In this document: in pieces, positions 4,853 to 40,569 of the stretch
Numbering within the stretch: position 1 is the first letter of the stretch
How the letters are laid out: every line of letters begins with the position of its first letter
Origin: a virus
Reading direction: 5' to 3' (one strand)
IMG/VR virus record: IMGVR_UViG_3300031787_009175
Coordinates: 30,784 to 94,783 of that record
Length of the DNA stretch: 64,000 nucleotides
Program-made: the position numbers and the translations under genes
Notes under the pieces: model-generated
Databases searched by the model: none
What the model was told of the DNA's origin: nothing
What the model saw: the letters and a program-made list of their open reading frames with translations, nothing else

Positions 4853-4859
4853 TATTTAT
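4853..4859 (+). promoter_or_regulatory. TATTTAT box (candidate late promoter)
   Basis: TATTTAT on the plus strand, 8 nt before the ATG at 4868. With the box at 4823-4829 it makes a divergent pair in a 50-nt intergenic gap. Confidence 0.45.
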
Positions 4860-4867: not shown

Positions 4868-5494
4868 ATGAGAAAACTAATAAAACAAATCTTGGAGGAA
4901 TATTCGAACGAATTTTTTGAAATAAAACCATATTGTTCTTTGGATGATTTACTTTTGGAGGAAATAAGGGCTAATCAAAAAGAGATTAGTGAATTAGGGT
5001 ATATACCAACACCTATATCTGATGATGAAGAGAATATGATTAAATCATATTTATTCACTGTAAACCAAGGTCAAGGCCCTTCGGTACAAAATTTTAACCC
5101 GAATCAAAGTGGTATAATAGGTATATCTAAAAATAAAAAAGGGGTAGAGACTAAAGTACTATTCAAAATACGGTTAACAAGACATTGGTATTTCAGATTA
5201 CATAGAACAGAGGACCCAAAGTTCAAATCAAATCCTAGAGTTATAGACCCAAAACCATTCGAATGTATCGATGCCATAGATAGAAATGCTGACCGATTAG
5301 CTAGATTTGTGTTACAAAGAGACCCAAGCCCAAGAATTGTTTGGGAGGCAAATACTACAGGTATGTTGAGTTTTCTTATGGTTTTCGAACCAAAAAATGC
5401 CCAAGGAACAGAATATGACATAGTCCTAACAAATCAAATAAAAGGGGTCAGTTTTTTTGACCGAATATCACAAAACAAAATACCCCTCCGTTAG
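4868..5494 (+). CDS. Unknown protein with candidate capsid-targeting leader
   Basis: A 208-residue protein I do not recognise. It begins MRKLIKQILEEYS, a short basic amphipathic helix ending in an (I/L)xE site (ILE or LEE). This matches the leaders at 54730 and 55101 and resembles the capsid-targeting sequences of T4 internal proteins cut by gp21. The rest is soluble and mixed alpha/beta, with a basic stretch around RLTRHWYFRLHRTED and no recognised catalytic motif. It is a single gene between the fibre unit and the convergent RNA locus, and its stop codon lies inside that RNA's terminator hairpin. Packaging with the DNA is inferred from the leader alone. Confidence 0.7.
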   Translation: MRKLIKQILEEYSNEFFEIKPYCSLDDLLLEEIRANQKEISELGYIPTPISDDEENMIKSYLFTVNQGQGPSVQNFNPNQSGIIGISKNKKGVETKVLFKIRLTRHWYFRLHRTEDPKFKSNPRVIDPKPFECIDAIDRNADRLARFVLQRDPSPRIVWEANTTGMLSFLMVFEPKNAQGTEYDIVLTNQIKGVSFFDRISQNKIPLR

Positions 5495-5507
5495 ACGGTT
5501 AGGGGTA
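5471..5507 (-). terminator. Intrinsic terminator of the minus-strand RNA
   Basis: TACCCCT (5481-5487) pairs with AGGGGTA (5501-5507) around an inner CCGT/ACGG stem. Read on the minus strand, the hairpin is followed at once by TTTTGTTTTG. The plus-strand side has no T-run. The hairpin contains the stop codon of the gene 4868-5494. Confidence 0.8.
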
Positions 5508-5679
5508 GAATGTTTCATACGGATTCTCATCTTCGCCGTACCTTCGCCCGATAAGGTATATCCGGGAGACCTACTTAACCACCCCCTCATCGGGGTACCT
5601 CGTGCCCTTTCTTTCGGTTAAGGTTTTTCTTGTTCGCTATTTCAGAACAAGGCAAATGTCTTTGTCTATTATTAGAACA
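5471..5679 (-). ncRNA. Candidate novel structured non-coding RNA, about 200 nt
   Basis: The 235-nt gap between converging genes holds no ORF but is visibly richer in G+C than its surroundings and dense in inverted repeats. Stems seen, in plus coordinates: 5629-5635 with 5645-5651 (CTTGTTC/GAACAAG), 5574-5580 with 5616-5622 (CTTAACC/GGTTAAG) enclosing 5581-5585 with 5592-5596, 5547-5550 with 5563-5566, an alternative or pseudoknot pairing 5539-5544 with 5553-5558, and 5518-5522 with 5536-5540. A consensus Bacteroidota promoter lies just upstream and an intrinsic terminator closes it. It does not look like a tRNA, tmRNA, RNase P or SRP RNA. Function is unknown. Confidence 0.75.
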
Positions 5680-5682
5680 CCA

Positions 5683-5713
5683 CAAAGATATAAATAGTTT
5701 TTGATTCTACAAA
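5683..5713 (-). promoter_or_regulatory. Bacteroidota-type promoter of the structured RNA
   Basis: On the minus strand TTTG (5713-5710), a 19-nt spacer, then TATCTTTG (5690-5683). This is an exact match to the known Bacteroidota primary-sigma consensus TTTG-N19-21-TAnnTTTG. Transcription should start near 5679-5676 and run to the terminator at 5471. Confidence 0.7.
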
Positions 5714-5729: not shown

Positions 5730-7430
5730 TTAACACTCTTTTCTTAAAGACGCCTCATAGTGTTCAAAACGATTGTGTTCCGTCGGTGTTAAAAGTAACA
5801 AAGCTGGTTTTATTTCGTTTTTTACTGTTTCTTGGAATATGAACGACATCAATGTTTGTTCATAAGGTGATGCAAACTTGGTGTTAATAAAACACTTTCT
5901 ATTTCCTTCTTTGGACATAATCTGTGGCCAATTACAATAAAACACTTCACCTGTCGTATATGGTAATCCTTCGAAAGATTTTATACTTTCGTATCTTGTC
6001 TTAGGAGAATTTGGGTCTAATCCTTGTTGTGGTAGCCTTGGATTGTTTGGCCATTGTAGTTCTCTAAAATGTTGTGGTACATTATACCAAGCCCACTGAG
6101 TTCCATTATCTCCGAAAAATTCAGAATAATTCATTTTGATAAAATCAAAATTTTCTTTTTTGATTAATCCGATTAACTTGTCGTATAAATTCGGAACATA
6201 TCTTGCAAAACCATTTCTGCAGTGACCGTATTTGTCTTCGCTGAAAAACATATCGTCTTCGAAAAAGAAATAATATTTGTGATTACTTCCTTCGAAATGT
6301 TCCGCAATCCACTGTCTTCCACCCGTTATTCCTATATTGTCCTTTTTAACATGTTGGAATCCATATGCTTGGCATAATGCCACATATTGTTCTGTTGTTG
6401 ATAAATCAGTTGAGTTATTTAATAAATACTTTTTTGGTTTATCGATAAAGTTTTTATCATAACTTAACATTGAATGTATAAGTGTTTTGAATTGGTTTGG
6501 TGAATTGAAACCGATGACATATAACGCGACCTCTTCGTCTGTAAACTTAATAGGTTCAGGTTGTAAGTTCAAAATATTTTCCAAAAATAAATTTGGGTCT
6601 GATTGTTTCATATATACGTCGTTTTTAACATCTTCGAAAAATTTACCTAATAGTCCGTTGGATTCTATAAAGAAGGTATCAATCAATTCAGGATTCAGAT
6701 AAGTCATAATAGTGAAAATAGACTCCTCTGTTCCCATATAACCATTATCTAAAGTATCTTTCATAAGATGATAATAAATGGAATTTAACTCTGCTATCGA
6801 ATCTTTTTTTCCTCCGAAAAAACCCGCTCTCGCAACTCTATCAACTCTATTTTTTGAGTATTCGTTCATAGCATTTATTTCAAAACCGTGAATTTCAGAA
6901 TTGGTTTCATAAGGAAAACAAATGAACATAAATTTATTTGTTAGTTTTTGAATTTTTTCCAAAATATTGTCGTGTGTAAAATAACCTGGATGAACCGTAT
7001 TTGATAAACCGGCATCAATCCAAAACATATATTCAGAATCAAACTTGTCCAAAATTTTTGCATCGTGTAATAAGAACATCTTGGACATAACAAGTGGATT
7101 GTACATCTCCAATTTTGCCTGTGTTGACTCAGATAACCAACCGATTTGGTTGTACCACTTTGGATTTGTTCTTATTTTTTGAATTTTATGATAAAAATCA
7201 TTATTGACGAACCAAGTTAAGTCTCTTGTGACAAATTGTGTGTTAGTATCGCTTCTTCTTTCGGATACAAATTTTTTCAATTCCTCATCGCCAAAAATTA
7301 TTAAGTTACAATCTATTTTTAATAAATCTTCTAATTTATTTAAATAGTGTTGGAAATTTCGTGACCATCCGTCTTGTAGTTGCTCACGACCTATTTCCCA
7401 TAAACCTGTTACTAATGTTGTTTTATTCAT
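5730..7430 (-). CDS. Two-domain glycosyltransferase (HtrL/YibB-like plus GT-A domain)
   Basis: A 566-residue protein with two apparent sugar-transfer domains. The N-terminal half (about 1-290) starts TLVTGLWEIGR and has FWIDAGLSN near residue 135, the pattern of the HtrL/YibB family of predicted glycosyltransferases. The C-terminal half (about 300-566) starts ALYVIGFNSPNQF and has FFFEDDMFF near residue 392, a DxD-type metal and nucleotide-sugar site. No membrane segment is seen, so it acts in the cytoplasm. It is the last gene of the minus-strand sugar island, 1 nt after the methyltransferase at 7432. Donor and acceptor cannot be told. Confidence 0.7.
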   Translation of the reverse strand: MNKTTLVTGLWEIGREQLQDGWSRNFQHYLNKLEDLLKIDCNLIIFGDEELKKFVSERRSDTNTQFVTRDLTWFVNNDFYHKIQKIRTNPKWYNQIGWLSESTQAKLEMYNPLVMSKMFLLHDAKILDKFDSEYMFWIDAGLSNTVHPGYFTHDNILEKIQKLTNKFMFICFPYETNSEIHGFEINAMNEYSKNRVDRVARAGFFGGKKDSIAELNSIYYHLMKDTLDNGYMGTEESIFTIMTYLNPELIDTFFIESNGLLGKFFEDVKNDVYMKQSDPNLFLENILNLQPEPIKFTDEEVALYVIGFNSPNQFKTLIHSMLSYDKNFIDKPKKYLLNNSTDLSTTEQYVALCQAYGFQHVKKDNIGITGGRQWIAEHFEGSNHKYYFFFEDDMFFSEDKYGHCRNGFARYVPNLYDKLIGLIKKENFDFIKMNYSEFFGDNGTQWAWYNVPQHFRELQWPNNPRLPQQGLDPNSPKTRYESIKSFEGLPYTTGEVFYCNWPQIMSKEGNRKCFINTKFASPYEQTLMSFIFQETVKNEIKPALLLLTPTEHNRFEHYEASLRKEC

Positions 7431-7431: not shown

Positions 7432-8112
7432 TTATTCTTTTATTTTGCAAACCCATCCAACGTTTATGAATTCATCAAACATATATTCAGAAAGATTATT
7501 TGTTTCTGAACATTCACTAATATCAGAATTTTGGATTTCCATCCAATTCCAAAATCTATTTTTCATTTTTTCTTCAAAAAAAATATTATTGGGAGCGTAA
7601 TCGTGAGCCATAATAACGTCCCCTTTCTTAAGCAATTTAGAAATTAATCTGAATTCATTTTTTTTACTCCCTCCATCACATAACACTAAAGTTACGCCTT
7701 CACCTTCTATAAAATCGGACAGTTCTTTTTCGCATGAGTTGTCTTTGAAAGATTGATAATCTTGCGAAAATAAATTTTTACCGACATATCTAATGTCTTC
7801 ATTTTTTAACCTGTCGATTACATAGTCCGGACTACTGACATCATAAGTTCTAATTTCCGTGATTGGGAGTGAATTAAAATTCATTAAGTCCTTAATTATT
7901 AATGTAAGCCCACCGTGAAAAGTTCCTATTTCTAACACTCTTTTGGGTTTTATTTCTTTAATTAATTTGTCAAATCTATAAAGAATGTTAGGATTTTGTT
8001 CAATAGCCAACCCTTTGTAACTAGCATGAGTTATTATTCCATTTCTGAAATTAGTATTAAAATAATCGTTTTCGAAACAATTATAACCTGAGCAGATAAA
8101 ATGTTCTTTCAT
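7432..8112 (-). CDS. Class I SAM-dependent methyltransferase (CmcI-like)
   Basis: A 226-residue methyltransferase. The glycine-rich SAM loop is VLEIGTFHGG at residues about 59-68, followed by a strand with TYDVSSPD and later by LVLCDGGS and VIMAHDYAPN, as in cephalosporin-hydroxylase-like and related O-methyltransferases. It lies 1 nt from the downstream two-domain glycosyltransferase and 16 nt from the upstream transferase-like gene, so it most likely decorates a sugar made or transferred by this operon. Substrate is unknown. Confidence 0.7.
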   Translation of the reverse strand: MKEHFICSGYNCFENDYFNTNFRNGIITHASYKGLAIEQNPNILYRFDKLIKEIKPKRVLEIGTFHGGLTLIIKDLMNFNSLPITEIRTYDVSSPDYVIDRLKNEDIRYVGKNLFSQDYQSFKDNSCEKELSDFIEGEGVTLVLCDGGSKKNEFRLISKLLKKGDVIMAHDYAPNNIFFEEKMKNRFWNWMEIQNSDISECSETNNLSEYMFDEFINVGWVCKIKE

Positions 8113-8128
8113 TGTTTATGTTTTTATG

Positions 8129-9085
8129 TTAGTATAATATATCTAAATTATTTAATAATGAAAATATTATTTTGTATTGGTTTTCAGGTAAACAATTTTC
8201 TACAAACCATTTCTTTGATTCCGAGATAATATTCTTACACTCTTGTGTATTATAAAAATCTATGAGTTCACAAACTTTACTGTTTATAATTTTTTCCAAA
8301 TTCTCACCGTTATTATAAATAATTTTATTTGTCAAATCATCATCCAAAAATTCTATATAATGAATGTTTTTTTCTAATCTATTATGGGTCAATGAATTTA
8401 GAGGTTGTCTTAAATTCAAAACCCCTAACCCAAATAATTCTAAATCCCTATAACAAATATTAGCGGCACCATTTAAACTTAAACCAAATTTGTAATTTGA
8501 TAATTCTTCATAGTATTGTTTTTTTTGTCTAAAATCCGAAGGGTTCGTTTTAGATTTTATATCAAAAAATTCATTTTTGGCCAAAAAATTCATAATATTC
8601 TGCCTTAACCCGTGATTTAATCCATTAAAATAAGATTTGGTCAATTTTCTCTCTTGAGGTTTTATATTTTGTATATATTCAACATCACTCCAATTTTCTA
8701 AATAATATACTGAAGGTTCTACTGAAATAATATCTTTGTATTTTTCTATAATACCTTGTGTTAAATTAGAAACACAAGACAACATCACGATGTTGAAATT
8801 ATTTTGTATTGAGTAATTTATTATTTCAGGGGCATAATCATACCAACTATGAACAAACATTTTTTCATTTGATGGGTTGTATATTACCAAATTAAACCAA
8901 TTGAAAATACTGGTGTAGTGATTGGATATCTCTTTACCGAATTTTGTTGCTAAATCCCTCAAAGAGATATACTCTAATTCGAATTCAGTATCGAACTCTA
9001 TTTTTTTATGAAAAAATTTATAGAACTCGCTTACATACCAATTATGGTATCCTTGCTCATAGGAAATTATAAGTTTTTTTTTCAT
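8129..9085 (-). CDS. Glycosyltransferase-like protein (exostosin/CAP10-type C-terminus)
   Basis: A 318-residue soluble protein. The C-terminal half has YKFGLSLNGAANICYRDLE followed by a Leu/Gly-rich stretch, the arrangement seen in exostosin- and CAP10-like transferases, where a Ser/Gly loop and acidic residues contact the nucleotide sugar. The N-terminus (LIISYEQGYHNWYVSEF) is not recognised. It overlaps the upstream gene by 4 nt, which implies coupled translation. The transferase call rests on this motif and on the neighbours. Confidence 0.5.
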   Translation of the reverse strand: MKKKLIISYEQGYHNWYVSEFYKFFHKKIEFDTEFELEYISLRDLATKFGKEISNHYTSIFNWFNLVIYNPSNEKMFVHSWYDYAPEIINYSIQNNFNIVMLSCVSNLTQGIIEKYKDIISVEPSVYYLENWSDVEYIQNIKPQERKLTKSYFNGLNHGLRQNIMNFLAKNEFFDIKSKTNPSDFRQKKQYYEELSNYKFGLSLNGAANICYRDLELFGLGVLNLRQPLNSLTHNRLEKNIHYIEFLDDDLTNKIIYNNGENLEKIINSKVCELIDFYNTQECKNIISESKKWFVENCLPENQYKIIFSLLNNLDILY

Positions 9086-9942
9086 TTCTCTGTTGCATGT
9101 ATTATACCCCCTCTAGGACCTGTTTTATATCCATTAGGTGTGAACACTTTGGACCATATTGGATGGGAATATGATATATCAAAATCTTTGAATCCTGCCA
9201 AATAAGCGGAAACCCCAATCTCGAAACCCTCGGCCCAAGTCCCATATGTAAAATCTTTATTAACTAAATAATCGTGGAACCATTTCCAATTATCTACCAT
9301 TTTTTTTAGTTTACCATCTTTATTGATAAAGATAAGTAAATATTCAGAAGGTAAACCGGCGCCTGCCCAACCGTGATTCTCAAAATCCTTGATAGTTTTT
9401 TTATCAAAATCAATCATATCGTAGTTGTATAATTTGTGCCAAAAAACCGTACAATTCGCATAATCGTATTCCGACTGATTTATTTTTGAAAGACAGTTCG
9501 TGTTAAAAGTATTCAACAAGTTTCTAACTTTATAATCCGTTCTTGGTCCGAAAAAATCAAAACCATCTGATACCATTTTTTCATAGAAATTTTTAATTTC
9601 AGATTCATCCCACCAATCAAAGGAGTTGTCGCAATCTGTAAAGATAATCAAACTATTTTCTAGTTCTTTTACGTGGTCTAAGCAGAGATATCTCATATTA
9701 AAATTGAAATCATCCGCGCCTTTATTTGGACCAATTGGTAACCTTACTTTTAAATCATCACGATTCAATTCTTTTATTTTAATACGACTATTTTCACCGA
9801 ATTTATCTCTTATCAGTTGTGAACAATCTGTCGTGACATATATATCGATTTTTGAAAGAGATAACACATCCTCTATCATCCTCAATGTGTAATCCTTTGT
9901 ATAATTTTGACCTAAACTTAAGGTAGTTATTGCTATTTCCAT
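9082..9942 (-). CDS. Putative glycosyltransferase (GT-A type, DCD motif)
   Basis: A 286-residue protein starting MEIAITTLSLGQNYTK. Near residue 105 it has LIIFTDCDNSFDWW, a strand ending in a DxD-like motif as in metal-dependent GT-A enzymes, and later a Trp/Gly-rich acceptor-side region (HGWAGAGLPSEY, GTWAEGFE). It overlaps the next gene by 4 nt and follows the methyltransferase at 9949 with a 6-nt gap. No close family is recognised. Confidence 0.55.
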   Translation of the reverse strand: MEIAITTLSLGQNYTKDYTLRMIEDVLSLSKIDIYVTTDCSQLIRDKFGENSRIKIKELNRDDLKVRLPIGPNKGADDFNFNMRYLCLDHVKELENSLIIFTDCDNSFDWWDESEIKNFYEKMVSDGFDFFGPRTDYKVRNLLNTFNTNCLSKINQSEYDYANCTVFWHKLYNYDMIDFDKKTIKDFENHGWAGAGLPSEYLLIFINKDGKLKKMVDNWKWFHDYLVNKDFTYGTWAEGFEIGVSAYLAGFKDFDISYSHPIWSKVFTPNGYKTGPRGGIIHATEK

Positions 9943-9948
9943 AATGTT

Positions 9949-10497
9949 TTATTTTGTTTTTTTGAAGGCACAATAATAGTAATAATGGGTCCCCATATCT
10001 ATCGGAATTTTTAGTTCTCTCCCATCTAAATTTATCAATTCTAACATAGGATAATATTCTTTCATAAGATTATCATCCAAATCAGGCTGTAAATGAATTT
10101 CATATTTGTTACCAAAAACTTCTCCCTGTGGTAAATAATACGGAACTACGACTAACAACTCCTTACATTTATCCTTTAACCTATTCAAAAGTAACACGGC
10201 ATCCTCTCTAGATAAATGTTCTAATATGTCACCCATAATGATAATATCGTAGTATTTGAATTCAAAATCCATAATATTTACGTTGTAAACATTATCATAC
10301 ATCGATTCTAATTCATATTCTTGAATATACGGTTTCCATATTTCTACAGCATCAAATTTTTGGAAATGGTTATTAAGTAATTTGAAGTAAAAACCATGTC
10401 CGCAACCAACATCTAATATTGATGAATCTTTATCAAAGTTTCTAGTTAAATATTCTTTTACGTCGGGTCCTAAATATCCCCAATTTCCTGGCATCAT
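9949..10497 (-). CDS. Class I SAM-dependent methyltransferase
   Basis: A 182-residue methyltransferase. The SAM-binding loop is ILDVGCGHGFYF at residues about 28-39. The acidic residue after strand 2 is in FDAVEIWK and motif IV is IIIMGDILEHL, typical of the UbiE/Methyltransf_11 group. The N-terminus GNWGYLGPDVKEYL supports the ATG at 10497. It sits between two glycosyltransferase genes in the minus-strand island. The target is probably a sugar or glycan, by context only. Confidence 0.8.
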   Translation of the reverse strand: MMPGNWGYLGPDVKEYLTRNFDKDSSILDVGCGHGFYFKLLNNHFQKFDAVEIWKPYIQEYELESMYDNVYNVNIMDFEFKYYDIIIMGDILEHLSREDAVLLLNRLKDKCKELLVVVPYYLPQGEVFGNKYEIHLQPDLDDNLMKEYYPMLELINLDGRELKIPIDMGTHYYYYCAFKKTK

Positions 10498-10500
10498 TTT

Positions 10501-11373
10501 TTAAAAAAATTTACTAAGTTTATTAATTATTGGTTTTATGTTTTCAGATTCTAAAATTTCCTTTAATAAAAGTTTAGAATTTACTTCAGCATTCAAAAAT
10601 TTACCGTGTCTCACAATCTCAATATAATCAATTAATAAAAAATCTGAACCAATTTCTCTCTCGTCGGCATGGTAAGTTAGAGTAGGATAATGATAGCAAT
10701 AGTTTTTGAATCCAAAATCGAAAAAATTAATTTTTTTTTCGTAGAATGAGTAGTTATAAAACTCTTGTAACTTCCTTTTTTCTCCTTTAGTATTTTTAAT
10801 ATCAGTATTATCTAACTGATGTAGTGAAATCATAGGGTTCGAATTTAATAATTTAATCAGAGAATCTTTTTTCCAAATACATGGCTGAACTGAATACATA
10901 TGTCTAGCGGATTCATCGAATTCATAGAAACAATCCTTAGGGTAGTTGTATTTTTCATAATCTATTTCGGATTTCTTCCAATTACGTATAAACGCTTCCA
11001 AATGTTTTTGGGTGCTGAATGAAATAAAATCCGCTTTCAAATCCTCACAAATATTTACCAAGTTTTCGAACCTTTCTTTTTTAATTGGCGATTTGACCAA
11101 GTAATCATCGCATAACCAAAAAATATATTCTTCAGGTATTTCACTTAAACATTTAGTCATTGTTGGCCCAAAATGACTACCATCTATAGAAAACGGCGTT
11201 CCTGATTCTAAAAAAATGACATTTGGATTAACAATCTGATATGGTATCTTGTTTGACACAACATAGATTTTTTTACCTAAAAAAAAACAATTGTCAACAA
11301 CAAATTTTAATGTTAATTCTAGTAATTCAAAATAATTCTCATTAGTAAAAATAATAAAACAAATATCTCTCAT
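10501..11373 (-). CDS. Putative glycosyltransferase (GT-A type, DDY motif)
   Basis: A 290-residue protein with a Rossmann-like start (DICFIIFTNENYFELLELTL) and EYIFWLCDDYLVKSPI near residue 85, a DxD-type site. Further on are YHYPTLTYHADE and a charged C-terminal tail. It is soluble and lies 3 nt from the methyltransferase at 9949 and 6 nt from the HAD-nucleotidyltransferase at 11380. The sugar is unknown. Confidence 0.6.
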   Translation of the reverse strand: MRDICFIIFTNENYFELLELTLKFVVDNCFFLGKKIYVVSNKIPYQIVNPNVIFLESGTPFSIDGSHFGPTMTKCLSEIPEEYIFWLCDDYLVKSPIKKERFENLVNICEDLKADFISFSTQKHLEAFIRNWKKSEIDYEKYNYPKDCFYEFDESARHMYSVQPCIWKKDSLIKLLNSNPMISLHQLDNTDIKNTKGEKRKLQEFYNYSFYEKKINFFDFGFKNYCYHYPTLTYHADEREIGSDFLLIDYIEIVRHGKFLNAEVNSKLLLKEILESENIKPIINKLSKFF

Positions 11374-11379
11374 AAAATC

Positions 11380-12747
11380 TCAATCCAAACTTAGAAAAGT
11401 GTTTAAATCCTCAGGAGTTCCTAATCCGAACATTTTATTAACATTGAATGTTTTAATTTTTTTTGAGTCTTCAATTGCTTGATTAAATACAGGACAGACA
11501 TAAAATTCATTATTTACTCTTATATTTTTTTCTATCATTTGTTCTGCATATTTAACATAATCTGAACCTTTTTTCCAAAAATAAATACCTACAGTAGCAA
11601 CATCTGATATCGGTTTTTTTTCCGCAACCTCAGTCACTAACCCAAATTCATTCAATTTAACAAATGACCATTTTGGGTGAGTCGATTTAAATGTAACTAT
11701 ACCCGCATCACACTCCGTTTCATTCATTTTATACATAAATTCATTGGAGTCCCACTCGATGAATTGGTCTGAATTAGCAATTATTAATGGATTATCGTTA
11801 TCAATGAACTTAGTAGCTAATAATGTAGTACACGCAGCACCTTCAGTTATTCCGTCAACCTCAACAATCTGACACGTTGGGGTTACTAAATTTAACAATG
11901 TATCTAAGTTATATTTTTCTCTGTGTCTTTTTTGAACGATAAAAATATAATTACCGTCAATATTTAAATTATCGACAACTAATTTAATCATTGGCTCACC
12001 ATTAACGTCAATCAATGGTTTTGGAAATGTATAACCCGCTCTCTCAAATCTACTTCCGGCTCCGGCCATAGGTATCAATATGTTTAATTTTTTATCTGAC
12101 CATTTTGGTGATTTAATAGTTTTTGAATTATTTAATTCATTTAACTTTTTTATGATTTTATCATAAGTTACATCATCAGCGTTTTTAACTCTTAAAACAT
12201 TTGAGTAACTTCTATTTGCGGCCAATAAACCGTAAGGTGAATCCTCAATAATTAATGTTTCTTCGGGTAAACATTCCATCATAGAAATCGCTTTCCAAAA
12301 AATTTCAGGATGAGGTTTACTGTTTTTAACATCTTCATTAGATAATACCAAATCAAAAAATTCAATAATTTCTAGTTTAGATAACACGGTTAATACAGTT
12401 TTTCTGACACTGTTACTGCAACAAACTATTTTATATTTTAATTTTGATAATTCAGATAAACAAAATATTAATTTTTGCGATTTTTCTAAATTAAGAATTT
12501 TTTTTAAAGTGTATTTTTGTTTTGTTTCCCAAACCACATTAAATGATGATGTAGGTAAACCTTTATTAGTGTGTAATAATTTTAATTTTTGATTTGTTTT
12601 TAAACCATCATATAAACTTAAATGTTCATTCCATTCAATTACATATTGTTCTCCAACATCTTTTAAAGCCTTATTTAAACTTTCATAGTGTATTTCTTTA
12701 GCATCTAATAAAACGCCGTCTAAATCAAAAATTATTGTTTTAATCAT
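11380..12747 (-). CDS. HAD phosphatase - sugar nucleotidyltransferase fusion
   Basis: A 455-residue fusion of two enzymes that act on sugar phosphates. Residues 1-215 are a HAD hydrolase of the beta-phosphoglucomutase type: motif I is FDLDGVLLDA, motif II VCCSNS, and motif III runs from the Lys in NSKPHP to IIEDSPYG. Residues about 225-455 are a nucleotidyltransferase with the signature ILIPMAGAGSRF, then FPKPLIDVNGEPM and the metal-binding ANSDQF. Together they could process a sugar phosphate and activate it to an NDP-sugar for the surrounding transferases. All catalytic motifs look intact. The exact sugar is not known. Confidence 0.85.
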   Translation of the reverse strand: MIKTIIFDLDGVLLDAKEIHYESLNKALKDVGEQYVIEWNEHLSLYDGLKTNQKLKLLHTNKGLPTSSFNVVWETKQKYTLKKILNLEKSQKLIFCLSELSKLKYKIVCCSNSVRKTVLTVLSKLEIIEFFDLVLSNEDVKNSKPHPEIFWKAISMMECLPEETLIIEDSPYGLLAANRSYSNVLRVKNADDVTYDKIIKKLNELNNSKTIKSPKWSDKKLNILIPMAGAGSRFERAGYTFPKPLIDVNGEPMIKLVVDNLNIDGNYIFIVQKRHREKYNLDTLLNLVTPTCQIVEVDGITEGAACTTLLATKFIDNDNPLIIANSDQFIEWDSNEFMYKMNETECDAGIVTFKSTHPKWSFVKLNEFGLVTEVAEKKPISDVATVGIYFWKKGSDYVKYAEQMIEKNIRVNNEFYVCPVFNQAIEDSKKIKTFNVNKMFGLGTPEDLNTFLSLD

Positions 12748-12748
12748 A

Positions 12749-13444
12749 TTACTTTTGTATATAAGCGGTAGGACATAAAAAATTTATAGATTTTAACTCT
12801 AAGTTTTTTTCTTGGATAAAACGGTCAACCCCTTTAGATTCACTCCACTTGTGGTAACCATATTCATCAAACACGATAATACCTCCCTTAGTCATATTGC
12901 CCCAAAAATTCGATAGTGTGTCATAAGTTGGTTTTTCTAAATCTAAATCCATATACAATAATGAAATTTTAAAACCAGGATTCTCATTTGAGAACATGTG
13001 AGTCGTAACAGATACGTCACCCTTAATTAAGTCAAATTCGTTAGGTAAAAAACCATCATTTAAAATCTTATTATATAAAATATCTCTATAATTTTCATCA
13101 TGATTAAAGTTTCGTTCTTTAAATAAACTATTCATATAAGTTTTATCTAAATCGTTTGTTAAGGTTGATACTAAACCATCATTATCAAAATAATCAAACC
13201 CAATTACTTTTTTATGAGTATTCGGATTAAAGACCCTCTTCAATTTTAAAAAAGAATATAAACCAGTACCTTTAAAAACACCACATTCAACTATATCTCC
13301 AGGAATATTTTTAACTTTATTATATATAAGTGTTCTTGCGATTAATTTATTAAAGATTTTAGTGTCCTCACTTAAAATAAAATTATTAAACGAATCGAAC
13401 AATTCTTGAGGTGTTTCAGTTAATTCTAAGTTTTTTATGTTCAT
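12749..13444 (-). CDS. TylF/MycF-like O-methyltransferase
   Basis: A 231-residue SAM-dependent sugar O-methyltransferase. It has DIVECGVFKGTGLYSF near residue 55, FDYFDND, then LLYMDLDLEKPTYDTL and GGIIVFDEYGYHKW, the order typical of the macrocin-O-methyltransferase family. In that family the Asp residues of the DxDxY region bind a metal that positions the sugar hydroxyl. It overlaps the next upstream gene by 4 nt and is 1 nt from the HAD fusion downstream. A family member also occurs in the plus-strand island at 42159. Confidence 0.85.
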   Translation of the reverse strand: MNIKNLELTETPQELFDSFNNFILSEDTKIFNKLIARTLIYNKVKNIPGDIVECGVFKGTGLYSFLKLKRVFNPNTHKKVIGFDYFDNDGLVSTLTNDLDKTYMNSLFKERNFNHDENYRDILYNKILNDGFLPNEFDLIKGDVSVTTHMFSNENPGFKISLLYMDLDLEKPTYDTLSNFWGNMTKGGIIVFDEYGYHKWSESKGVDRFIQEKNLELKSINFLCPTAYIQK

Positions 13445-13887
13445 ATTTTTTTGTTATATTTTTCTATAACATCACTACATATACCAATACATAACGATGT
13501 ATTATCATCGTGCAATTCAGGTAAAACTGATATACTATTTTTAATGGGTTGTTTACCTGGATAAACCCATATGTGGTTATGCGATGTTAGTGTTATAGTA
13601 TCTGTTTCATGCCAAAAATAATTGAACTCATATTGATTTGTTTTAAAAAAAATTAATGAGTTAATATTCTTACAGTGAATCCATAATTTAGATTTTCTAT
13701 CTTCTAACCAATCAAGATTTATATCGTAAAGTGGTTTATCGTGTCCTAAAAATATATTGTCATTAACAACCCACACATCTATCTCAACATCATAACCGGA
13801 ATAGATTGCTTCATCTATGTATTCAGGATGGTTTTCTCTTAATTTATTTTCACCATTTATATTTCCTCTATGAGAAATCAATATCAT
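13441..13887 (-). CDS. GDPD-like phosphodiesterase (small)
   Basis: A 148-residue protein with the glycerophosphodiester phosphodiesterase fold signature: ISHRGN at residues 4-9, then ENHPEYIDEAI, GYDVEIDVW and FLGHD. These give the catalytic pair of His and the metal-binding Glu/Asp of the family. The family usually exceeds 220 residues, so this is a minimal form missing much of the C-terminal barrel. It overlaps both neighbours by 4 nt inside the sugar operon. It might release glycerol phosphate from a glycan or lipid; the substrate is unknown. Confidence 0.65.
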   Translation of the reverse strand: MILISHRGNINGENKLRENHPEYIDEAIYSGYDVEIDVWVVNDNIFLGHDKPLYDINLDWLEDRKSKLWIHCKNINSLIFFKTNQYEFNYFWHETDTITLTSHNHIWVYPGKQPIKNSISVLPELHDDNTSLCIGICSDVIEKYNKKI

Positions 13888-15134
13888 AAATTCCCCGTTA
13901 TTCTTTCACACCATCCCTTAGATGTGGAATATGGCCATACAACCCAATACTTTGGTTTGTGAGATGTTTGGAATTCTCTCCAAACCTTACAATATCCATC
14001 AGGGTCATTTTTCATTCTGTTAATTTCATTTACATCAGCATCCTTTCTGAAAATTGTTTCGTCTTGTTCGTTGTGAAATGCAACTACCCAAAATTCATAA
14101 TCTTCTTCCGGAACTTGAGAATAACCAATATCAATACAATGTTTGAAAATTGATGCAAAACTATTTTTCCAATCCTCTTCGTTCTCAAAATTATATGTGT
14201 TTGGGGGATATGTTTTATCGATTGTTTCCTGTTGGATTGCCCTTCTTTCGAATAACAATCCTGAATATTTTTCATAATCCCTTAATGTTCTTTCAGTACC
14301 AAATCCATAAATTCCAAATTCATCGGGATTATAAGTTTCACCGTCCATAGAAAATAATTTTCTATTCTTAAGATGTGCTCTGTTGTTTTTTGAAACCCAA
14401 TCTCTATCATCGTCCCATTGTTTAGTTCTACCTTTTCTTGTATATTCGTGCCAAATTAATGCTTTATGTGGGTGAAACAAATCATATCCGTGTGTGTAAG
14501 CTCTTGCTGCGATTGAAATTTCTTCTCCGTGAAAATAGAATTCGGGGTCGTGTTGAACTTCTTTAGAAAATTCACCTAATGTGAAGCAGTAGTGTGCTGA
14601 GTAAAATCTCGCAGTAACAGGTTCCTTCAATTCCTGCCAATTTGGTATTGTTTCAGGTAAAAAGAAAACCGCCCCCTCAGGTATAAATCTATCGAACACC
14701 ATCCTCCAAGGTTCTTGAATTCTTTCTTGTGGGTCGTTATCAGGATTAAACGATGAAACATATCCCGTTAGAAGAGGTTTTTTATGACCTTTCTTTTGTA
14801 ATTGTTTAATCATTTTAATCATTTCATCATCCCAATTTGGTGCAAACCTCATATGTGAGTCAATTTGTAAGGTGTATTCTTCACCTTGATATAGTTGTTG
14901 AATTTGATTTCTTGCCCAACAAGCGCCATTTGACTCTAAATAAAAAATATCAAGTATTCTAAATCTTTTATCTTTTCTATATTCATCTAAAGTGTCAAAT
15001 TTATCATCAGGATGATATTGACGGGCAATTCCAAAAACTAAATTTTTTGGTTTTTTTGCATTTTCGATTGCTGATTTAATTGTTTTTTCTAATTCGGGGT
15101 CCCTATAAGACGCAATTTGAATAAAAATTTTCAT
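13884..15134 (-). CDS. GT60-like GlcNAc transferase (Skp1 GlcNAc-transferase family)
   Basis: A 416-residue GT-A enzyme. It begins IFIQIASYRDPELEKTI, has GACWARNQ near residue 90, the acidic DSH site in YTLQIDSHMRF, and FHGEEISIAARAYTHGY further on. This matches the family of the polypeptide hydroxyproline GlcNAc transferase of Dictyostelium Skp1 (Pfam GlcNAc). It is the first gene of the sugar island and lies only 72 nt downstream of the giant Thr/Pro-rich fibre. Since the family is known to glycosylate protein, that fibre is a natural candidate acceptor; this is inference. Confidence 0.75.
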   Translation of the reverse strand: MKIFIQIASYRDPELEKTIKSAIENAKKPKNLVFGIARQYHPDDKFDTLDEYRKDKRFRILDIFYLESNGACWARNQIQQLYQGEEYTLQIDSHMRFAPNWDDEMIKMIKQLQKKGHKKPLLTGYVSSFNPDNDPQERIQEPWRMVFDRFIPEGAVFFLPETIPNWQELKEPVTARFYSAHYCFTLGEFSKEVQHDPEFYFHGEEISIAARAYTHGYDLFHPHKALIWHEYTRKGRTKQWDDDRDWVSKNNRAHLKNRKLFSMDGETYNPDEFGIYGFGTERTLRDYEKYSGLLFERRAIQQETIDKTYPPNTYNFENEEDWKNSFASIFKHCIDIGYSQVPEEDYEFWVVAFHNEQDETIFRKDADVNEINRMKNDPDGYCKVWREFQTSHKPKYWVVWPYSTSKGWCERITGNL

Positions 15135-15206
15135 ATATTATTGTTCTATTTTGATATAAAAATAATACTTGAAAAAAACAAATAAATAGATTATTTAAGT
15201 GATTTA

Positions 15207-18200
15207 CTATGGTAATCCCCACGGAGCGCATTTAGGGTCGTGAGTTAAATCTGTAATTGTTGTGTATGTTGTACCAGGAGGACCTGGTATCATATCTCCT
15301 GATACAAGTGTGAATACGTAGTTACCGGATGAAAAAGTTATGTTGAACACTGCACCATTGACTGTTGCAACATAAAACTGAGGTAAAGTAATGCCTGGGA
15401 ATGGGAAAAACGGTCCTGACGCTCCATTAGATACAGGTAAGTTTAACTTTTGGGTTGTAGATTGTACCGAGTAAGTAAATGTGAATTGGTTGTAAATTAT
15501 ATCCACTAAATAAGTGTCAACGCCAACTTTGATTGGTAAAACAAAACTAGAAGGTTCTTCGTACAAATGTATAGAACCGTTCAATGTACCACCACTAGGT
15601 AAGTCAAATAGGAAAGTTTCTACAGGTGTTGAGGTTGCTATATTTACTCTATACATTTTCTGAACCCCTAAAACAGATTTTACATAATGTAGGATGTTGT
15701 TTGTACCAGGTTGGTTGTTTGCGATTTTTATTATATTACCACCAGTTACGTTTATAGTTCTATTATATATCGGATTGAAATTTGTGGCTGTAGTTGTAAA
15801 TTCATATATATTATTCATATCCGCAAAATACATTTTGTTGGTAGGACTATAAATGTTGGCAAAAGTGGTCAAAGAACCTGATGATAATTGAACCTCAATA
15901 TCTTCATACCAAATATTAGTTGCTAAAGAAGTGGGAGGTTGAGCGTATCTCGAAATGTTTGTCAGAGTTGTATATCCCAATGGTTCTCTTGTCATACTAT
16001 AGATATTACAACCCTGAATTCTTGTGATTGTATATGTATTAGAAAACCCTGATACTTGTTGACAAATAACTGAACTTCTATCACCCGCTGGAGGACAAGC
16101 ACCTTCTGAAAGTGGGTCACAACAAATTTTCACAACTCTGAAAAATAAGTTTGTGAATGAATTCGGAATTGGTCCATTGTTTACTGTTTGGGGAGATGTA
16201 CAAGAAAAATTAACACTTCCGATAAAACCTAACCAAGGACCATTCGGACTCACTGTAGAATATTGGACATTTACATCACAACAAGAATTACAATCAATTA
16301 AATCAAAAAACACACTATAAGTCCAACCACCATTTTGCTGGAATGAATAAGTTATATTAGTTATGTTCGGTCCGCAACAACAATCACTCGGTGTGTTAAT
16401 AAAAATACATTCATCACAATCACGACTAACTTTATATGATGCTGATAAAGATGTTGTTATGTCAGGAGAGTTACTACTTAATCCAAGCACCTGTAGACAC
16501 ATGTTATTTGGTGGTGCTAAGTAAATTTGGAACACTTGTGCGGTTATAAATTCATTATATTGTAAAGAAGTTAAACCGGTCAACCTTACATAATATGTCT
16601 GTGACGTACAACAACTTTCTGTTTCTAGAGTGACCTCAAAGTTCGTTTGAGTTGGAGTCGGTGTGACAGTAGGTGTTTTTGTAACTGTAGGTGTTTGAGT
16701 TGGTGTTTGAGTATTTGTAGGGCTCTGCGTTAAAGTCGGAGTTTGTGTCGGCGTTTGTGACTTTGTTGGGGTTGGTGTTTTTGTCGGTGTTTTAGTTTGT
16801 GTAACAGTAGGGGTTACTGTTTTTGTTGGGGTAGGTGTCGGAGTAGGTGTCGGAGTAGGTGTTGGTGTTGGGGTAGAACTAACAGGTGATAAGCAGTTCG
16901 CGCAATCAACATAAGGACCTCCGTTTACCGTTGCTGTAAATTGTGAATTAACGCAACCTGTGAGTGTATCGATAACGGTGAAACAATTTTCTTCGATTCT
17001 TTCTATCCCTATTATATTGTTTGCATTATATGTTACGTTATTAATTGTAATACTACTAAAATTACCACCAACTAAATATCTTCCACTTTGATTGTCTATT
17101 TTGATGATATCGTAAAACTCACTATTTGTACTACCTGTCATAGTTTGAAGAAGAGAACCATCTGAGTTAACATAGTACAATTTGCCAATATTCTTGTTAG
17201 TACCAACTAAAAATTTTCCATCACTCAAAAGAAGGATTTTCAAAAAAATTTGGGTCGAGGTAAATCCACTAGACCAAGATTGGGCGTTGAATGTATTGTC
17301 GATTGTCCCGCCAGAATCGAATCGTACGATATTTACAATATTTTGGGTATTTGCCGATGAAAATCCACCAACCACAACAATCTTACCGTCGTTTTGAATC
17401 ACTAAGTCTATTGCACCTCCTAAACCTCCAACGTTGTTTACAGTACCAGAGAATGTAGTGTCCAAAGTACCATCCGTATTTAACCTCATAATACCTTTAA
17501 GAGGGTTGGAATTATAACCAGTTATATTTCCACCGACAACAACTTTATCGTCAGATTGTAATTTGATTGTAAAAATATCTCTCATTTCAGCACCATTACC
17601 ATAATTGACAAAAGAGGTATCTATTTCCCCATTGGATTTCAACTTTATTAATCCTGGACTTGAAAATCCTGAATATGTGGTAAATGTACCTCCAACAAAA
17701 AATCTATCTTGTACTAATGTATCTAAAGTTAATACATAAACCTCTTGGTTAAATCCTGTACTTGAAGAGAATGTATTATCGTAAACCCCTGCATCGGTTG
17801 TTCTGACGATATAGTTAACGTTATTTACTCCATAACCTGTAAATCTACCACCCAAAATTATATTCCCTGTTGACTGTTCAATTGTATCGAAAACATAAGA
17901 ATTGGCACCACCCGCATCTGTATAATTTTGGAACTCATTAGAATCAAATAAAGAATCGAAAGTTCCAACACCATTTGTGGATGTGTACAAATAAGCGATA
18001 TTTCCGTTGTATGCTGAAAAAGAACCACCATAAATTATTGTATCGGCTTTCTGAGTGAGTTGTAATAAACTTGAAACCTGTGCATTCAGACCGCTAAAAC
18101 CTATCCCATATACAAATTCTTGGTCTTTGTAAAATACATCAGGGAATCCTGTAATGTTATATGTGTTATTTTCCAACAAAGTTGTGGTACTGTCGGCGGT

Positions 18201-21200
18201 AAAGGTCAACCCACTCACTGTACATGAACTCAAAACGTACGATTCTAAATTCACACTTGTACAACCATTACAATCACTATAACCTGTCCAAGCAATTGTT
18301 GCACCTGTTGTTTCAACACTACCCCCACCTCTACTATAACACAAATCATTATAAACAATCACAGGTTGGAAATATATAGAATATCCCGCATCATAAATAG
18401 GGATTATATCTCCACCATCACAACAATTTGTGTAATCCCTAACTCCAAACCCACACGGGTTACCTAGATTGTTTAACGCTACCGTACAATTGATATAGTC
18501 GTAATTTATAAAACAGTTAGTACCGAAGTTACCTGTTGAAGCACTTACCATAGAATATGGTAGACTGTCATCAGGATTAATAACAACATTACCCGCCACG
18601 AAGTTTTCAGGAACAATTCCAAATGTGACTAAAGTTGGAGTACCGTATGGGTCATCGCAACAAGATATAAAATCATAAGCGGTAAATCCACACTCACACT
18701 TGTTTTGTTGTTGACACTGAAGACATTCTCCAGTTTGGAAATCCGGAATTTCATAACTGAAAACACCTGATTGACTATTATCAAATGCAACCAATTTAAA
18801 ACATTTTGTGCCTGTTATGGTCGGGTCTTCATATTGTACAATATCACCAATATCCCAACCTGTATTATTTACATTGAAATAATATGTTAGTGTTTCGGTG
18901 CAACAATCTGTAAATCTTGCTCTTGTACAATATTGATTTAGATAATTAGACTCGCATGTTGAGCAATCACTTAAGAATGAACTAACAGGGAACGGTACTT
19001 GTGGGTTTACAGACCCAATGGTTGAACTTCCATTGAAATATAAACAAACTCCGACGGCCGTACCTCCACCTAATCCTCCCGTACCTTGAGTTGTTGTAGT
19101 ATTTCCTATTTGTAAATCATAAGAGAATTGAGTACCATATTGTGTTGTTTGTCCCGTCGGCACGACATTAACAACAAATTGTGTATCACCTGAACAACAA
19201 TCTAAAAATATCATAGGACAACCAACAGTTTGTACACATTCCCAACAAGTTGTATAAGCGGTAGTTGTATAGCTTTCACTATAAGTGCCCTCCTCAGGCA
19301 GATACTGATAAGCACTATAACATTGATTATTTGTTGTATCGGTGACTACATCTCCGACAGACCAAGAGTGTGTGAAAGTATCTAATAAATAATATTTTAC
19401 ATCGGTTTGAGTACAACAATCTCTGAATTCCCAAACTTGGAATTGAGGTGCGGGGGTTGGGGTCAAAGTCGGTGTCTGAGTAACCGTTACAGTTGGTGTT
19501 ACGGTTGGGGTTTGAGTATTTGTCGGTGTTTGAGTATTTGTAGGAGTTTGTGTGTTAGTAGGTGTGACGGTTGTGGTTGGCGTTTGTGTCTTGGTTGGTG
19601 TAGGAGTTGGAGCTGGTGTTTTAGTTGGAGTTTGGCTTACACAATTTATTGTACCATAAATGTCCAATTGGCATGCATCACAATCGTTATAGACTGATGA
19701 TAATGCAGGTGGATTAGTTAATGTGTAGATTGTAGTTGGATTGGATTCTATTATCGTTGCACAACCAACAAACAAATCCGAAACAATATATAACGTTTCT
19801 CCTATTTCATAGTTATATGGTATGGATGCAAATTCATCAGCAAAAATGAACTTTATTGAATTACAACAAGAGCTGAAACATCTAGTAACTTGGGCGGAAC
19901 ATAATTCACAATTATCAAATGTAGCACCTGTAATATAACTGCTTATGACAGATGGTGATGAATCAATAATATCTACCAAAGTCCAACAACCAGATAAATT
20001 AGACAATCCTACAACATCACCTAAGTTTATCGGAAGTGGTTCATCTACAAATACACAATTATCCGTAGGTTCGTTATATGAAATAATTCTATTGAATGAA
20101 TTTGTGATATTTGTTGTCGAGAACCCTGTTACAGTTGGGTCAATCTGCCAATTAAAGTTTTTCAATCCTACACCATCTTGTAATGATGGAGTCAGGTTTT
20201 GATAAACCGTACTAGCCGTAAACGCTGTAATAGGATTTATTGTTTCCAAAGTAACAAATGTCCAATTAGGTGACATAACAGGATTTATAAACGGCCATAC
20301 ACCACCATTGAAATTGTATTTGTTACCAAAATATGTCGATGTATTTGTCTCGCCTTCAATTATAGCCAAAGAAGTTAAAATGAATTGATATCCAATAGGT
20401 AGGTTATATGGTTGAGGTAATATTCCTGCAAAAGAAGGTTCAGGATATAAAAAGTTTTCTATTTCCCCTAAAGATACATATTTCAAATCATACCAAACAT
20501 TCAAATATGCCTCATAATCATCTAACACATTAGTTAAATTGAAATTAAAATTATCCGGTTGATTAGTTGTATTACCTGATGTATTATATCCACTAGTGTT
20601 GGTAGTATAAGCGTTTTGAGCCTCATTTATGATATTAATAGTGATATAGTTAGTATCTCTGAATGAATCTACGTTTCCACCATAGGTATATATCGGTGAT
20701 GAATTTACCGTGTCAGATGAGAAAGAATTTCTTATACCACTCGAATATTGGTTTTTTGTCCCATCGAAATTTAAACCTCTGTTGATATTATAGTTCACTG
20801 TACCAACACCCCCATCAACAACATAACAGTTCAAAGGATTACTTATAAATCCTGATGACAATGTTCCTCCCAATAAAGACCCCAAATACGGATAGCAAGA
20901 CCACCACATCCAATTCATACCGTATACCACCATTTCGTATAAATTTCCAGTGTAACCGCTATTGTTTACTAAATCCGAATACCAAGACCTAATATTTTGA
21001 GATGCCCCACTTAATGTTGACGGTGAGTACGAAGGACTTGCATCATAAAAAACATAAATGTTTTTTGTTAAATCGGTTGTCGCCGAACACTGACACATTT
21101 GATAAATTGGATTGAAAGAACATTCACCTTGTGAGTTTGTACAACCACTACAACTTGCAAATGTAGAACCTGTATTTGAATTTAGGTAATATAAATTTTC

Positions 21201-24200
21201 AGCCGGTTGATTTACAATTCTGAAACACCCTTGTAATCCATTTCCATCAAAATAATACGTAAGATTTTGGTCAAGACCATAAATTGTATTATATGTCATA
21301 CCAAAACCACTGAAATTGTATGTGGTACCTGATAGTAAATCACAACAAGCGCTGAATGATTTTTGATTCGATGTTGGTGTTACGGTAGGTGTTGGGGTTG
21401 ATGTTGGTGTTGCAGGTGGAGTTGGTGGAGGTGTTTCAGTTGGTGTCGGTGTTACGGTATTTGTCGGTGTTTGTGTGTTTGTTGGTGTCGGAGTAGGTGT
21501 AGGACAAACACCCCCTACGCAAGCACCAATTAATTCAGCAGTCCCAGAACCGAAACTAGTTATACTCCTTACACAAAAATTACCTGAAACTCCTGGTGCG
21601 ACCGATTGAGATACACCATTACAATCAACATATACTAATGCTGTCGAAGTCCTACCAATACTAACTGTTATAAAATAACAATCACAAACAGGGGTTGTTG
21701 GTGTCACAGTCGGAGTCACAGTACTCGTAGGTGTGGGTGTTGGTGTTGGGCATGGATTTGTTGATGTACAATCCTCACAAGAAGATTGTAACAAAATACT
21801 TTGATATTGAAAGTTTTCAGGTATGCCGATTTTATTCACACATCTAACGCATCCACTGAATCCTATCGTTTCTACGTAATAATAGTTACCAACTAATGGG
21901 GCAAATGCAAAAGGTATATCAAAAATTCTTATTTGTCTGTTATCACAACAACCAGTAAATAATCCAACTACGGGTGGAAATTGTGTAATAGTCGGAGTTG
22001 GCGTCAATGTTGGTGTTTGCGTGACAGTATTTGTTGGTGTGGTAGTATTGGTAGGTGTAACAGTATTGGTAGGTGTAACAGTATTAGTTGGAGTTACAGT
22101 ATTGGTCGGCGTTTGAGTTGGTGTTTGTGTTGATGTGGGACTTGGACTTTGACCAGGTGTAGGGGTAGGTGTTGGGGTCGTAGTTGAAGTAGGTGTTGTT
22201 GTAGGTGTTATAGTTGGAGTCGATGTTGGACTCGGACTAATGTCAACACAAGGAGCTAGTATTCCTGAATTATTAGACTGGCAAGTAAAACAGTCGTCCT
22301 CTAAAATGTAACCCACAATTGAGTAATTCAGATTAGGGGAAACGTTGGACGTGATTGTCACACAAGCATAGTAAGGATTGCCACCCACGGTAAACTCCAT
22401 CAAGTAAAAATCTCCAACATCACCAGCAGTAAACAAAGCTCCTGTTTGATAAATTTTACCATTTCCACAACAATCAACAGCCGCAATTTGTAGAGGAGTT
22501 GTTGGTGTAGGAGTTATAGTTGGAGTTTGTGTTTTAGTAGGTGTTACAGTTTGAGTTTGAGTATTCGTTGGTGTATTAGTTGGTGTTTGGGTTGTAGTAT
22601 TTGTAGGTGTTTGTGTGTTGGTTGGTGTATTTGTAGGCGTCTGCGTTGAAGTATTTGTAGGAGTGTTTGTTGGTGTTTGTGTCGAAGTGTTTGTAGGGGT
22701 AGTAGTAGGGGTATTAGTAGGCGTTTGCGTGTTTGTAGGTGTTTGAGTTGTTGTGTTCGTAGGAGTATTTGTAGGAGTATTTGTAGGGGTATTAGTAGGT
22801 GTTTGAGTATTTGTTGGTGTATTTGTTGATGTTTGGGTTTGAGTGTTAGTTGGTGTATTAGTTGGTGTTTGTGTATTGGTTGGCGTGACAGTGTTAGTCG
22901 GAGTTTGTGTGTTAGTCGGAGTTTGTGTGTTAGTCGGAGTTTGTGTTGTCGTAGAAGTTGGAGTGTTAGTTGGAGTTTGAGTAGATGTTGGCGACGGGGT
23001 TGCACCTGGTGTTGGTGTGTTAGTGGGAGTTTGAGTATTAGTTGGAGTTTGTGTGTTAGTCGGAGTAATAGTATTTGTGGGTGTAACAGTATTAGTTGGC
23101 GTTTGTGTGTTAGTCGGAGTAACAGTATTCGTAGGTGTTTGAGTATTCGTAGGTGTTTGAGTATTGGTAGGCGTTTGAGTATTCGTAGGAGTCAGCGTAT
23201 TCGTTGGCGTTTTAGTATTGGTAGGTGTTTGGGTATTAGTTGGTGTAACCGTATTTGTTGGCGTTTGAGTATTTGTAGGTGTTTGAGTATTCGTAGATGT
23301 TACAGTATTAGTTGGGGTATTAGTAGGTGTTTGAGTTGTGGTATTAGTTGGGGTATTAGTAGGTGTTTGAGTTGTGGTATTAGTAGGGGTGTTAGTTGGG
23401 GAAGGGGAAACTGCTGGGGTAGGAGTTTGTGTATTAGTAGGGGTTATTGTCGGAGTATTGGTTGGGGTGACAGTGGATGTATTTGTCGGTGTCTGTGTAT
23501 TTGTCGGGGTGATTGTATTAGTTGGCGTTTGTGTATTTGTCGGGGTGATTGTATTAGTTGGGGTTTGTGTATTGGTTGGTGTTGTAGTGGGAGTTTGTGT
23601 CTTAGTGCTAGTAGGTGTAACAGTATTAGTCGGGGTATTAGTTGGTGTTGTTGTGTTCGTTGGTGTGTTAGTCGGTGTCTCAGTATTCGTTGGTGTGTTA
23701 GTCGGTGTCTCAGTATTAGTTGGTGTGTTGGTTGTTGTCTGAGTTGGTGTAGGTGTTGGAGTTTCACCTGGTGTTGGAGTTACAGTAGGTGTAACTGTTG
23801 GAGTCACGGTTGATGTTGGTGTTTTTGACGGGAATGGTGTTTTTGTTGGAGTTCTAGTTGGGGTACTTGTTGTGGTTTCAGTTGGAGTATTTGTTGGAGT
23901 GAGAGTTATGGTCGAAGTATTAGTTGATGTTATTGTATTGGTAGGTGTTATAGTGTTAGTTGGTGTCGATGTATTAGTTGGTGTATTAGTTGGTGTTTCT
24001 GTATTTGTAGAAGTATTTGTCGGAGTGTTAGTTGGTGTCTCTGTATTTGTCGGGGTATTAGTCGGCGTATTGGTTGGTGTGACAGTATTTGTCGGTGTTG
24101 GAGAAGGGGTTGGACAAGTAGCACTACCTGTCGTTGCACTTAAACATTCTGTACATCCTGTATATATAACTACTTTCTGTAAGTTGTAATAGAAATTTGT

Positions 24201-32776: not shown

Positions 32777-32777
32777 T

Positions 32778-35397: not shown

Positions 35398-35403
35398 AAA
35401 ATT

Positions 35404-36069: not shown

Positions 36070-36084
36070 AAATTTAAGATTAAG

Positions 36085-36744: not shown

Positions 36745-36745
36745 A

Positions 36746-38483: not shown

Positions 38484-38484
38484 C

Positions 38485-40552: not shown

Positions 40553-40569
40553 TCATTAATTTAAAACAA

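Follow-up and report, generated by a model that had tools for sequence, protein, structure and literature searches.

A stand-alone pseudoknotted RNA paired with a small-protein gene in a T4-like phage and its relatives

The locus and its transcription signals

The window, i.e. the whole 64-kb stretch of DNA that was analysed, is part of a virus record with a total length of 94.8 kb. Judged from its genes for the major capsid protein Gp23 (57438-59249, minus strand) and an S77 prohead protease (61336-62091, minus strand), together with the DNA polymerase and tail-sheath-like genes that were recognised by inspection in the record, the phage is T4-like. Its host group is probably Bacteroidota, as the promoter type described below indicates. 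Glycosyltransferase, methyltransferase and nucleotide-sugar genes, judged by eye, form two extended clusters (7432-15134, minus strand, and 30233-48220, plus strand), unusually many such genes for a phage. A single ORF of 3289 codons at 15207-25076 (minus strand) presumably encodes a giant protein of the tail-fibre or adhesin-like kind.

The element studied here lies between a gene for a 566-amino acid glycosyltransferase-like protein (5730-7430, minus strand; match to HtrL_YibB in Pfam) and a small plus-strand gene at 4868-5494. This site is an insertion hot spot bounded by the glycosyltransferase gene, the DNA polymerase gene and a gene whose product carries MEF-IKKNATLP. In L011, L012, L020, L037, L046 and L055, the part of the hot spot downstream of the glycosyltransferase gene seems to hold other inserts on the opposite strand, which resemble HNH homing endonucleases. 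When the ORF lists of the window and the preceding 33 kb were read by eye, no gene for Cas, TnpB/IscB or a reverse transcriptase was noticed that would point to a guide, omega or retron RNA.

With its promoter and terminator, the element occupies 5713-5477 of the minus strand. The promoter (5713-5683) is of the Bacteroidota type, TTTG-N19-TATCTTTG, with the -33 TTTG at 5713-5710, a 19-nt spacer and the -7 box TATCTTTG at 5690-5683; it was the only strict match to the consensus when both strands of the 64 kb were scanned. An RNA of about 200 nt (5677-5477) follows, its start placed from the promoter spacing and its body matched by covariance models. It ends in an intrinsic terminator, UACCCC...GGGGUA with a T tract (5507-5477; sequence and minimum free energy), whose stem lies at 5507-5481 and whose T tract is interrupted (TTTTGTTTTG). 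A simple terminator scan did not flag this stem and flagged instead a hairpin at 5462-5446 (minus strand), GGTCAAAAAAACTGACC with a T-rich tail, just past it. Relatives carry strong terminators at the equivalent place. A sequence-only reading of this DNA had proposed the same order of promoter, structured RNA of about 200 nt and terminator, and both the sequence and the comparison with relatives confirm it. Its further statement that no ORF is present holds in part: there is no sizeable ORF inside the RNA, but the gene at 4868-5494 runs with its 3' end about 24 nt into the terminator. That reading also overlooked this gene as the protein partner of the RNA.

The same promoter precedes the RNA in L047, L085, L178 and L183 and a weaker one in L179, which alone among the lineages with a window-type RNA has a degenerate -7 box. 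In phages that are related or huge, the same extended host-type promoter also stands in front of tRNA genes (about 136-20 of L105, minus strand; 1501-1800 of L151, plus strand). These phages thus seem to use the host-type promoter for structured RNAs, and since promoters of this type precede tRNA genes in related phages, expression of the RNA by the host polymerase is plausible.

Structure and conservation of the RNA

From 5' to 3', the RNA body consists of a 5' hairpin, a stem P1, a hairpin P2, an H-type pseudoknot and a hairpin P3, all given here on the minus strand. The 5' hairpin, CUUGUUC/GAACAAG (5651-5629), was drawn from the sequence and the minimum free energy, and no counterpart of it was seen in relatives. 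P1 pairs CUUAACC (5622-5616) with GGUUAAG (5580-5574), with compensatory changes in three pairs. P2, ACCCC-GAUGA-GGGG(G)U (5596-5581), was found by sequence comparison and is matched by the held-out model R3 described below; its counterpart in relatives is ACAUC/GAUG(G)U. Covariation supports both stems of the pseudoknot, S1, in which AGGU (5572-5569) pairs with ACCU (5557-5554), and S2, in which CCCGG (5566-5562) pairs with UCGGG (5551-5547). The putative P3, UACGG...CCGUA (5540-5518), again comes from sequence and minimum free energy.

Homologs of the RNA were found in three further phage lineages, L178, L179 and L183; near-identical copies (e.g. L181, L182, L035 and L036) were left out as independent evidence. 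The four window-type RNAs can be aligned (alignment A12), and P1 and the two pseudoknot stems then comprise 14 pairs in which all 56 of 56 cells are paired. Across lineages, P1 reads CUUAACC/GGUUAAG, CUUAAUU/GAUUAAG, UAGUC/GACUA or UGGAC/GUCCA, S1 reads AGGU/ACCU, GGAU/AUCC, GCCU/AGGC or GGCU/AGCC, and S2 varies among CCCG/CGGG, CUUGG/CCAAG and CCAGU/ACUGG. Compensatory changes, with both sides altered, are present in 9 of the 14 pairs. Slid controls were 24-54% paired and had 0-4 pairs with two-sided changes, and the covariation score was reached by none of 500 shuffles. The pseudoknot stems analysed alone gave the same covariation picture.

Because the four sequences used for counting had also served to propose P1 and the pseudoknot stems, more weight falls on a held-out covariance model. 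This model, R3, was built from the three relatives only, with the window excluded, and its match to 5628-5545 of the minus strand scores 39.4 bits, with E 1e-6 for the 181 kb searched, against 19.9 bits for the runner-up. The window-type model R2 matches 5628-5529 on the same strand. Weak R2 or R3 matches elsewhere (e.g. window 15158-15244, plus strand, 24 bits) were taken as chance. Exact 18-mer and promoter-plus-RNA patterns had few matches in viral contigs, among them one in L087 that was set aside as chance, lying in a G+C-rich coding region. BLASTN against phages and plasmids returned promoters or terminators only, or nothing.

The minimum free energy of the RNA is unremarkable (z -1.48, with 16 of 200 shuffles as good), as is the folding energy of its core (z 0.05), and it is the comparative evidence, not the folding energy, that places the RNA above chance. 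By this comparative test it is a real structured RNA with an H-type pseudoknot, which the sequence-only reading had offered as a possibility. Rfam 15 held no match to any family, including the abiF RNA motif, ribozymes and riboswitches, and searches of the window RNA for tRNA and tmRNA were likewise negative. The longest direct repeat in the RNAs is shorter than 11 nt. The earlier idea of an undescribed RNA agrees with two of the checks suggested for it: Rfam gave no trivial or described class, and the search of related phages gave homologs in three lineages with the compensatory changes noted above.

Partner proteins and a second RNA-protein family

The gene at 4868-5494 (plus strand), convergent with the RNA, encodes a protein of 208 amino acids. 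Homologs of 190-194 amino acids are encoded beside the homologous RNAs of L178 (190 amino acids), L179 and L183 (194 amino acids), and L181 and L182 are near-copies of L178. Promoter, RNA and terminator are convergent with the partner gene in all four lineages, and every window-type protein gene found, those of the near-copies included, adjoins the RNA. When 50 phage records were searched with R2, strong matches occurred exactly in the holders of the protein (G001, G005, G030, G053 and G088) and nothing better than 26 bits in the others; the records were largely chosen via the glycosyltransferase or the proteins, so that the pairing is strict within this set and is not a census. Bacterial and archaeal genome contigs searched with the alignments of this and the second protein family described below yielded no homologs.

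The relatives of the glycosyltransferase gene (80 loci first examined) mostly have no insert at this place. L047 and L085 carry the same promoter here; after it come a shorter RNA and a gene for a 168-amino acid protein, in this order. A covariance model built from these two RNAs, R1, scored 52-59 bits (lowest E 1e-10) in loci that had been fetched only via relatives of the 168-amino acid protein, where the shorter RNA lies directly downstream of the gene and at a different genome site. This second family, with proteins of 168-172 amino acids, occupies two genome sites, and its RNA is present in 17 of 17 contigs, most of the RNAs being detected by R1 and those of L092, L096, L098 and L100 by reading the sequence. 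Within the searched set, strong R1 matches were confined to records that also hold the protein. RNA and gene are on the same strand throughout, the RNA upstream in L047 and L085 and downstream in L089-L100.

An H-type pseudoknot with CG after it is present in the shorter RNA too, and the stems of this pseudoknot are swapped wholesale between groups (GAUUG/CAAUC and AUUGGU/ACCAAU versus GGU/ACC and GAUACU/AGUAUC). Its core, CGUAG.GUGUCUGGCG.AAUCCGACAC, is nearly invariant; the proteins fall into two subgroups that are only about 40% identical. R1 does not match the window RNA, and neither RNA family is detected with the model of the other; in pairwise comparison with the window RNA, one of the shorter RNAs gave a similarity p of about 0.05 and the other 0.45, and BLASTP and profile comparison between the two protein families gave nothing. 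The two RNA families are therefore not claimed as homologs; any kinship rests on the architecture, which suggests a common origin. A further conserved, structured stretch follows the terminator of the shorter RNA at about 5650-5760 of L097 (plus strand), with a GUUAUCCGUUAGGGUAAC hairpin and then a terminator-like stem, GGGGGAAUUCGCUACUCCCCC. It recurs in L089, L090, L091, L093, L095, L096, L098-L100 and L175 and is perhaps a second small RNA or a part of the module.

Taken together, genomic sequence and comparison describe a two-part RNA-protein module, in which a stand-alone pseudoknotted RNA is always found beside a small-protein gene, and we are highly confident that RNA and protein are partners. 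Since the orientation varies (convergent, RNA first or gene first), the RNA is not generally a leader, a 3' UTR or an antisense RNA. The earlier view of a stand-alone transcript, not an mRNA leader, is borne out by the RNA's own promoter and terminator, by the convergent arrangement of the four window-type lineages and by the placement of the second-family RNA on either side of its gene. The roles that had been suggested for it, a ribozyme, a transcription modulator or a free decoy of host defence, are not supported, as none of them predicts strict pairing with a small-protein gene in two families.

Neither protein family matched Pfam or NCBIfam, and searches of PDB sequences gave nothing above chance; the window protein had no match in PHROGs. 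Profile searches with both families found no ToxN/CptN/TenpN, Abi_2 or RelE/ParE family match. With PADLOC, only the L089 protein (5001-5483, plus strand) matched a model, PDC-M02B (E 0.0006, residues 40-135), and the other homologs tested did not. AlphaFold2 models, one for each family, are of low confidence (pLDDT 63 and 69). Both predict the same order of elements, an N-terminal helix, two strands, a short helix, two helices and three strands, with a conserved T.H...R or S.YHQWF.RH motif after the second strand.

Foldseek gave no significant match in the PDB (best E 0.2-0.4). For the 172-amino acid protein, the top 50 entries are enriched in toxins of the RelE superfamily, with YoeB at rank 1, RelE at rank 3 and, besides these, YafQ (several times), RelK, Helicobacter toxins and ParE; for the window protein, T4 RegB has the highest TM-score of its list (0.32/0.40). 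No MazF-like fold was among the matches listed for these low-confidence models. RegB has been described as sharing structure with YoeB and RelE (PMC3014915). The weak likeness of the models to the RelE/RegB fold is taken as a lead, not as proof. A viral structure library holds one protein of an uncultured phage that matches at 7e-12 and is probably another family member.

The motif TATTTAT, presumably a phage promoter element, lies 15 nt upstream of the ATG of the partner gene (4853-4859, plus strand) and was seen shortly before the ATG in 9 of 9 partner genes inspected. It occurs 10-30 nt before the start codon in 9 of 52 window genes, versus 0.6-1.8% of random stretches. Reverse-complemented, it comes close to the T4 late motif, TATAAATA. 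The partner proteins also share a short N-terminal motif, (I/L/V)xE at residues 8-15 (13 of 13 proteins; N-termini e.g. MRKLIKQILEEY and MKRLIERIIREYLLEER). In T4, such N-terminal peptides target internal proteins to the head, where gp21 cuts after L/I-x-E, and these proteins are injected (PMC9026906). Both components of T4-type targeting, the N-terminal L/I-x-E motif and a gp21-type protease, are encoded by the window phage. As the motif is short and is also present in 11 of 45 other window proteins, packaging of the partner protein in the head is put forward as a hypothesis.

Comparison with known systems and possible function

Several known systems resemble the module in part. Type III toxin-antitoxin systems (ToxIN, CptIN, TenpIN and AbiQ), as defined in PMC5086642, likewise have a pseudoknotted RNA adjoining a small-protein gene, and L047 and L085 share with them the order promoter, RNA, terminator, gene. 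However, the type III RNA antitoxin is made of tandem repeats of 34-50 nt, which the module RNAs lack. The type III operon order, with the RNA upstream and a terminator between, is limited to L047 and L085, the window, L178, L179 and L183 being convergent and L089-L100 having the RNA downstream; unlike type III, the window type has separate start signals for RNA and protein. Type III toxins are ToxN, CptN or TenpN proteins with a MazF-like fold, whereas the partner proteins match none of these families in Pfam, NCBIfam or PADLOC and their low-confidence models have no MazF-like fold among the matches listed. Because repeats, operon order and toxin family were each tested and differ, the module is not filed as a type III member.

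AbiF (Abi_2) is neutralised by direct binding of an adjacent noncoding RNA, e.g. RCd22 in Clostridioides difficile (PMC12373285). It resembles the module in being a phage-borne protein with an adjacent structured RNA, but the partner protein is not Abi_2 and the RNA has no Rfam match. On the favoured reading, the module would work like type III or AbiF systems.

T4 RegB and RelE/YoeB (BECR-fold RNases) share with the partner protein a predicted order of helices and strands and a weak fold resemblance, RegB being moreover a phage enzyme, but have no sequence similarity to it. RelE and YoeB are held by protein antitoxins, and we know of no RNA partner of this kind for RegB. The T4 internal proteins IPI-III and Alt resemble the partner protein in the short N-terminal L/I-x-E peptide and in being accompanied by a phage-encoded S77 prohead protease; to our knowledge, they too have no RNA partner. 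Finally, phi29 pRNA, GOLLD and ROOL are stand-alone structured phage RNAs like that of the module, which differs from them in having no Rfam match, and no linked small-protein gene of this type is known to us for any of the three.

We tentatively propose that the RNA specifically binds and inhibits a RegB/RelE-like phage RNase. The partner protein would be a ribonuclease of the BECR fold, as the models hint, and the RNA would bind it via the pseudoknot and keep it inactive, or direct it, in the manner of an RNA antitoxin. On entry of the phage DNA, the host polymerase would transcribe the RNA at once, and synthesis of the protein would follow the phage's own programme; the protein may also be packaged and injected along with the DNA. 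If it is injected, the RNA would shield both the infected cell and the messages of the phage itself up to the point, if any, at which the protein is required. Against this proposal count the low confidence of the models and the lack of a significant fold match, the absence of any profile or covariance-model link between the two families, and the missing tandem repeats and shared promoter of type III systems.

The main rival holds that the protein is a ribonucleoprotein partner with no antitoxin role, which binds, processes or protects the RNA, and that the RNA or the complex is the effector, perhaps a decoy or cofactor against host defence or the host RNA machinery. The same linkage of RNA and protein speaks for it, and so does the near-invariant RNA core of the second family beside proteins of about 40% identity, as if the RNA met a conserved target. 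The RelE/RegB hint for the protein argues against it, as does the lack of any known defence or RNA family that resembles the module, and we consider it unlikely, if a serious contender.

A more far-reaching form of the inhibitor proposal would make the module a new kind of weapon of the phage, against which the RNA gives immunity. The head would carry and inject, with the DNA, a RegB/RelE-fold RNase that attacks messages or competing phages lacking the RNA; the immunity factor would be the non-repeated pseudoknotted RNA, transcribed without delay from the incoming genome by the host polymerase. This we regard as improbable. A slightly smaller chance still goes to the view that RNA and protein gene are unconnected accessory elements which happen to lie in one insertion hot spot, with the RNA acting alone. 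The site is indeed a hot spot, empty in many relatives and holding different inserts in others, but every contig found has both RNA and protein, their relative orientation takes three forms, and the second family is also present at another site.

A type I-like antisense RNA, overlapping the 3' end of the partner mRNA and repressing it by base pairing, might be read from the convergent 3' ends in the window, which overlap by about 24 nt. It is very improbable, as the RNA of L047, L085 and L089-L100 is on the strand of the gene with no overlap, and the conserved P1 and pseudoknot fall outside the overlap in the window. Fortuitous hairpins and a terminator between genes, which the unexceptional folding energy would allow, are refuted at the level of conserved structure by covariation, held-out detection and the conserved promoter, and keep next to no credit.

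If the analysis is right, phage hot spots can hold RNA-protein pairs that annotation pipelines miss, because neither half has a family model, and the module contributes two families of RNA that Rfam lacks and two of protein that Pfam and NCBIfam lack. It raises a testable question, whether a single pseudoknotted RNA restrains or guides a phage RNase. If so, this would be a protein under RNA control whose fold is neither ToxN/MazF nor Abi_2, and such a system would be carried by lytic T4-like phages and not as a bacterial defence.
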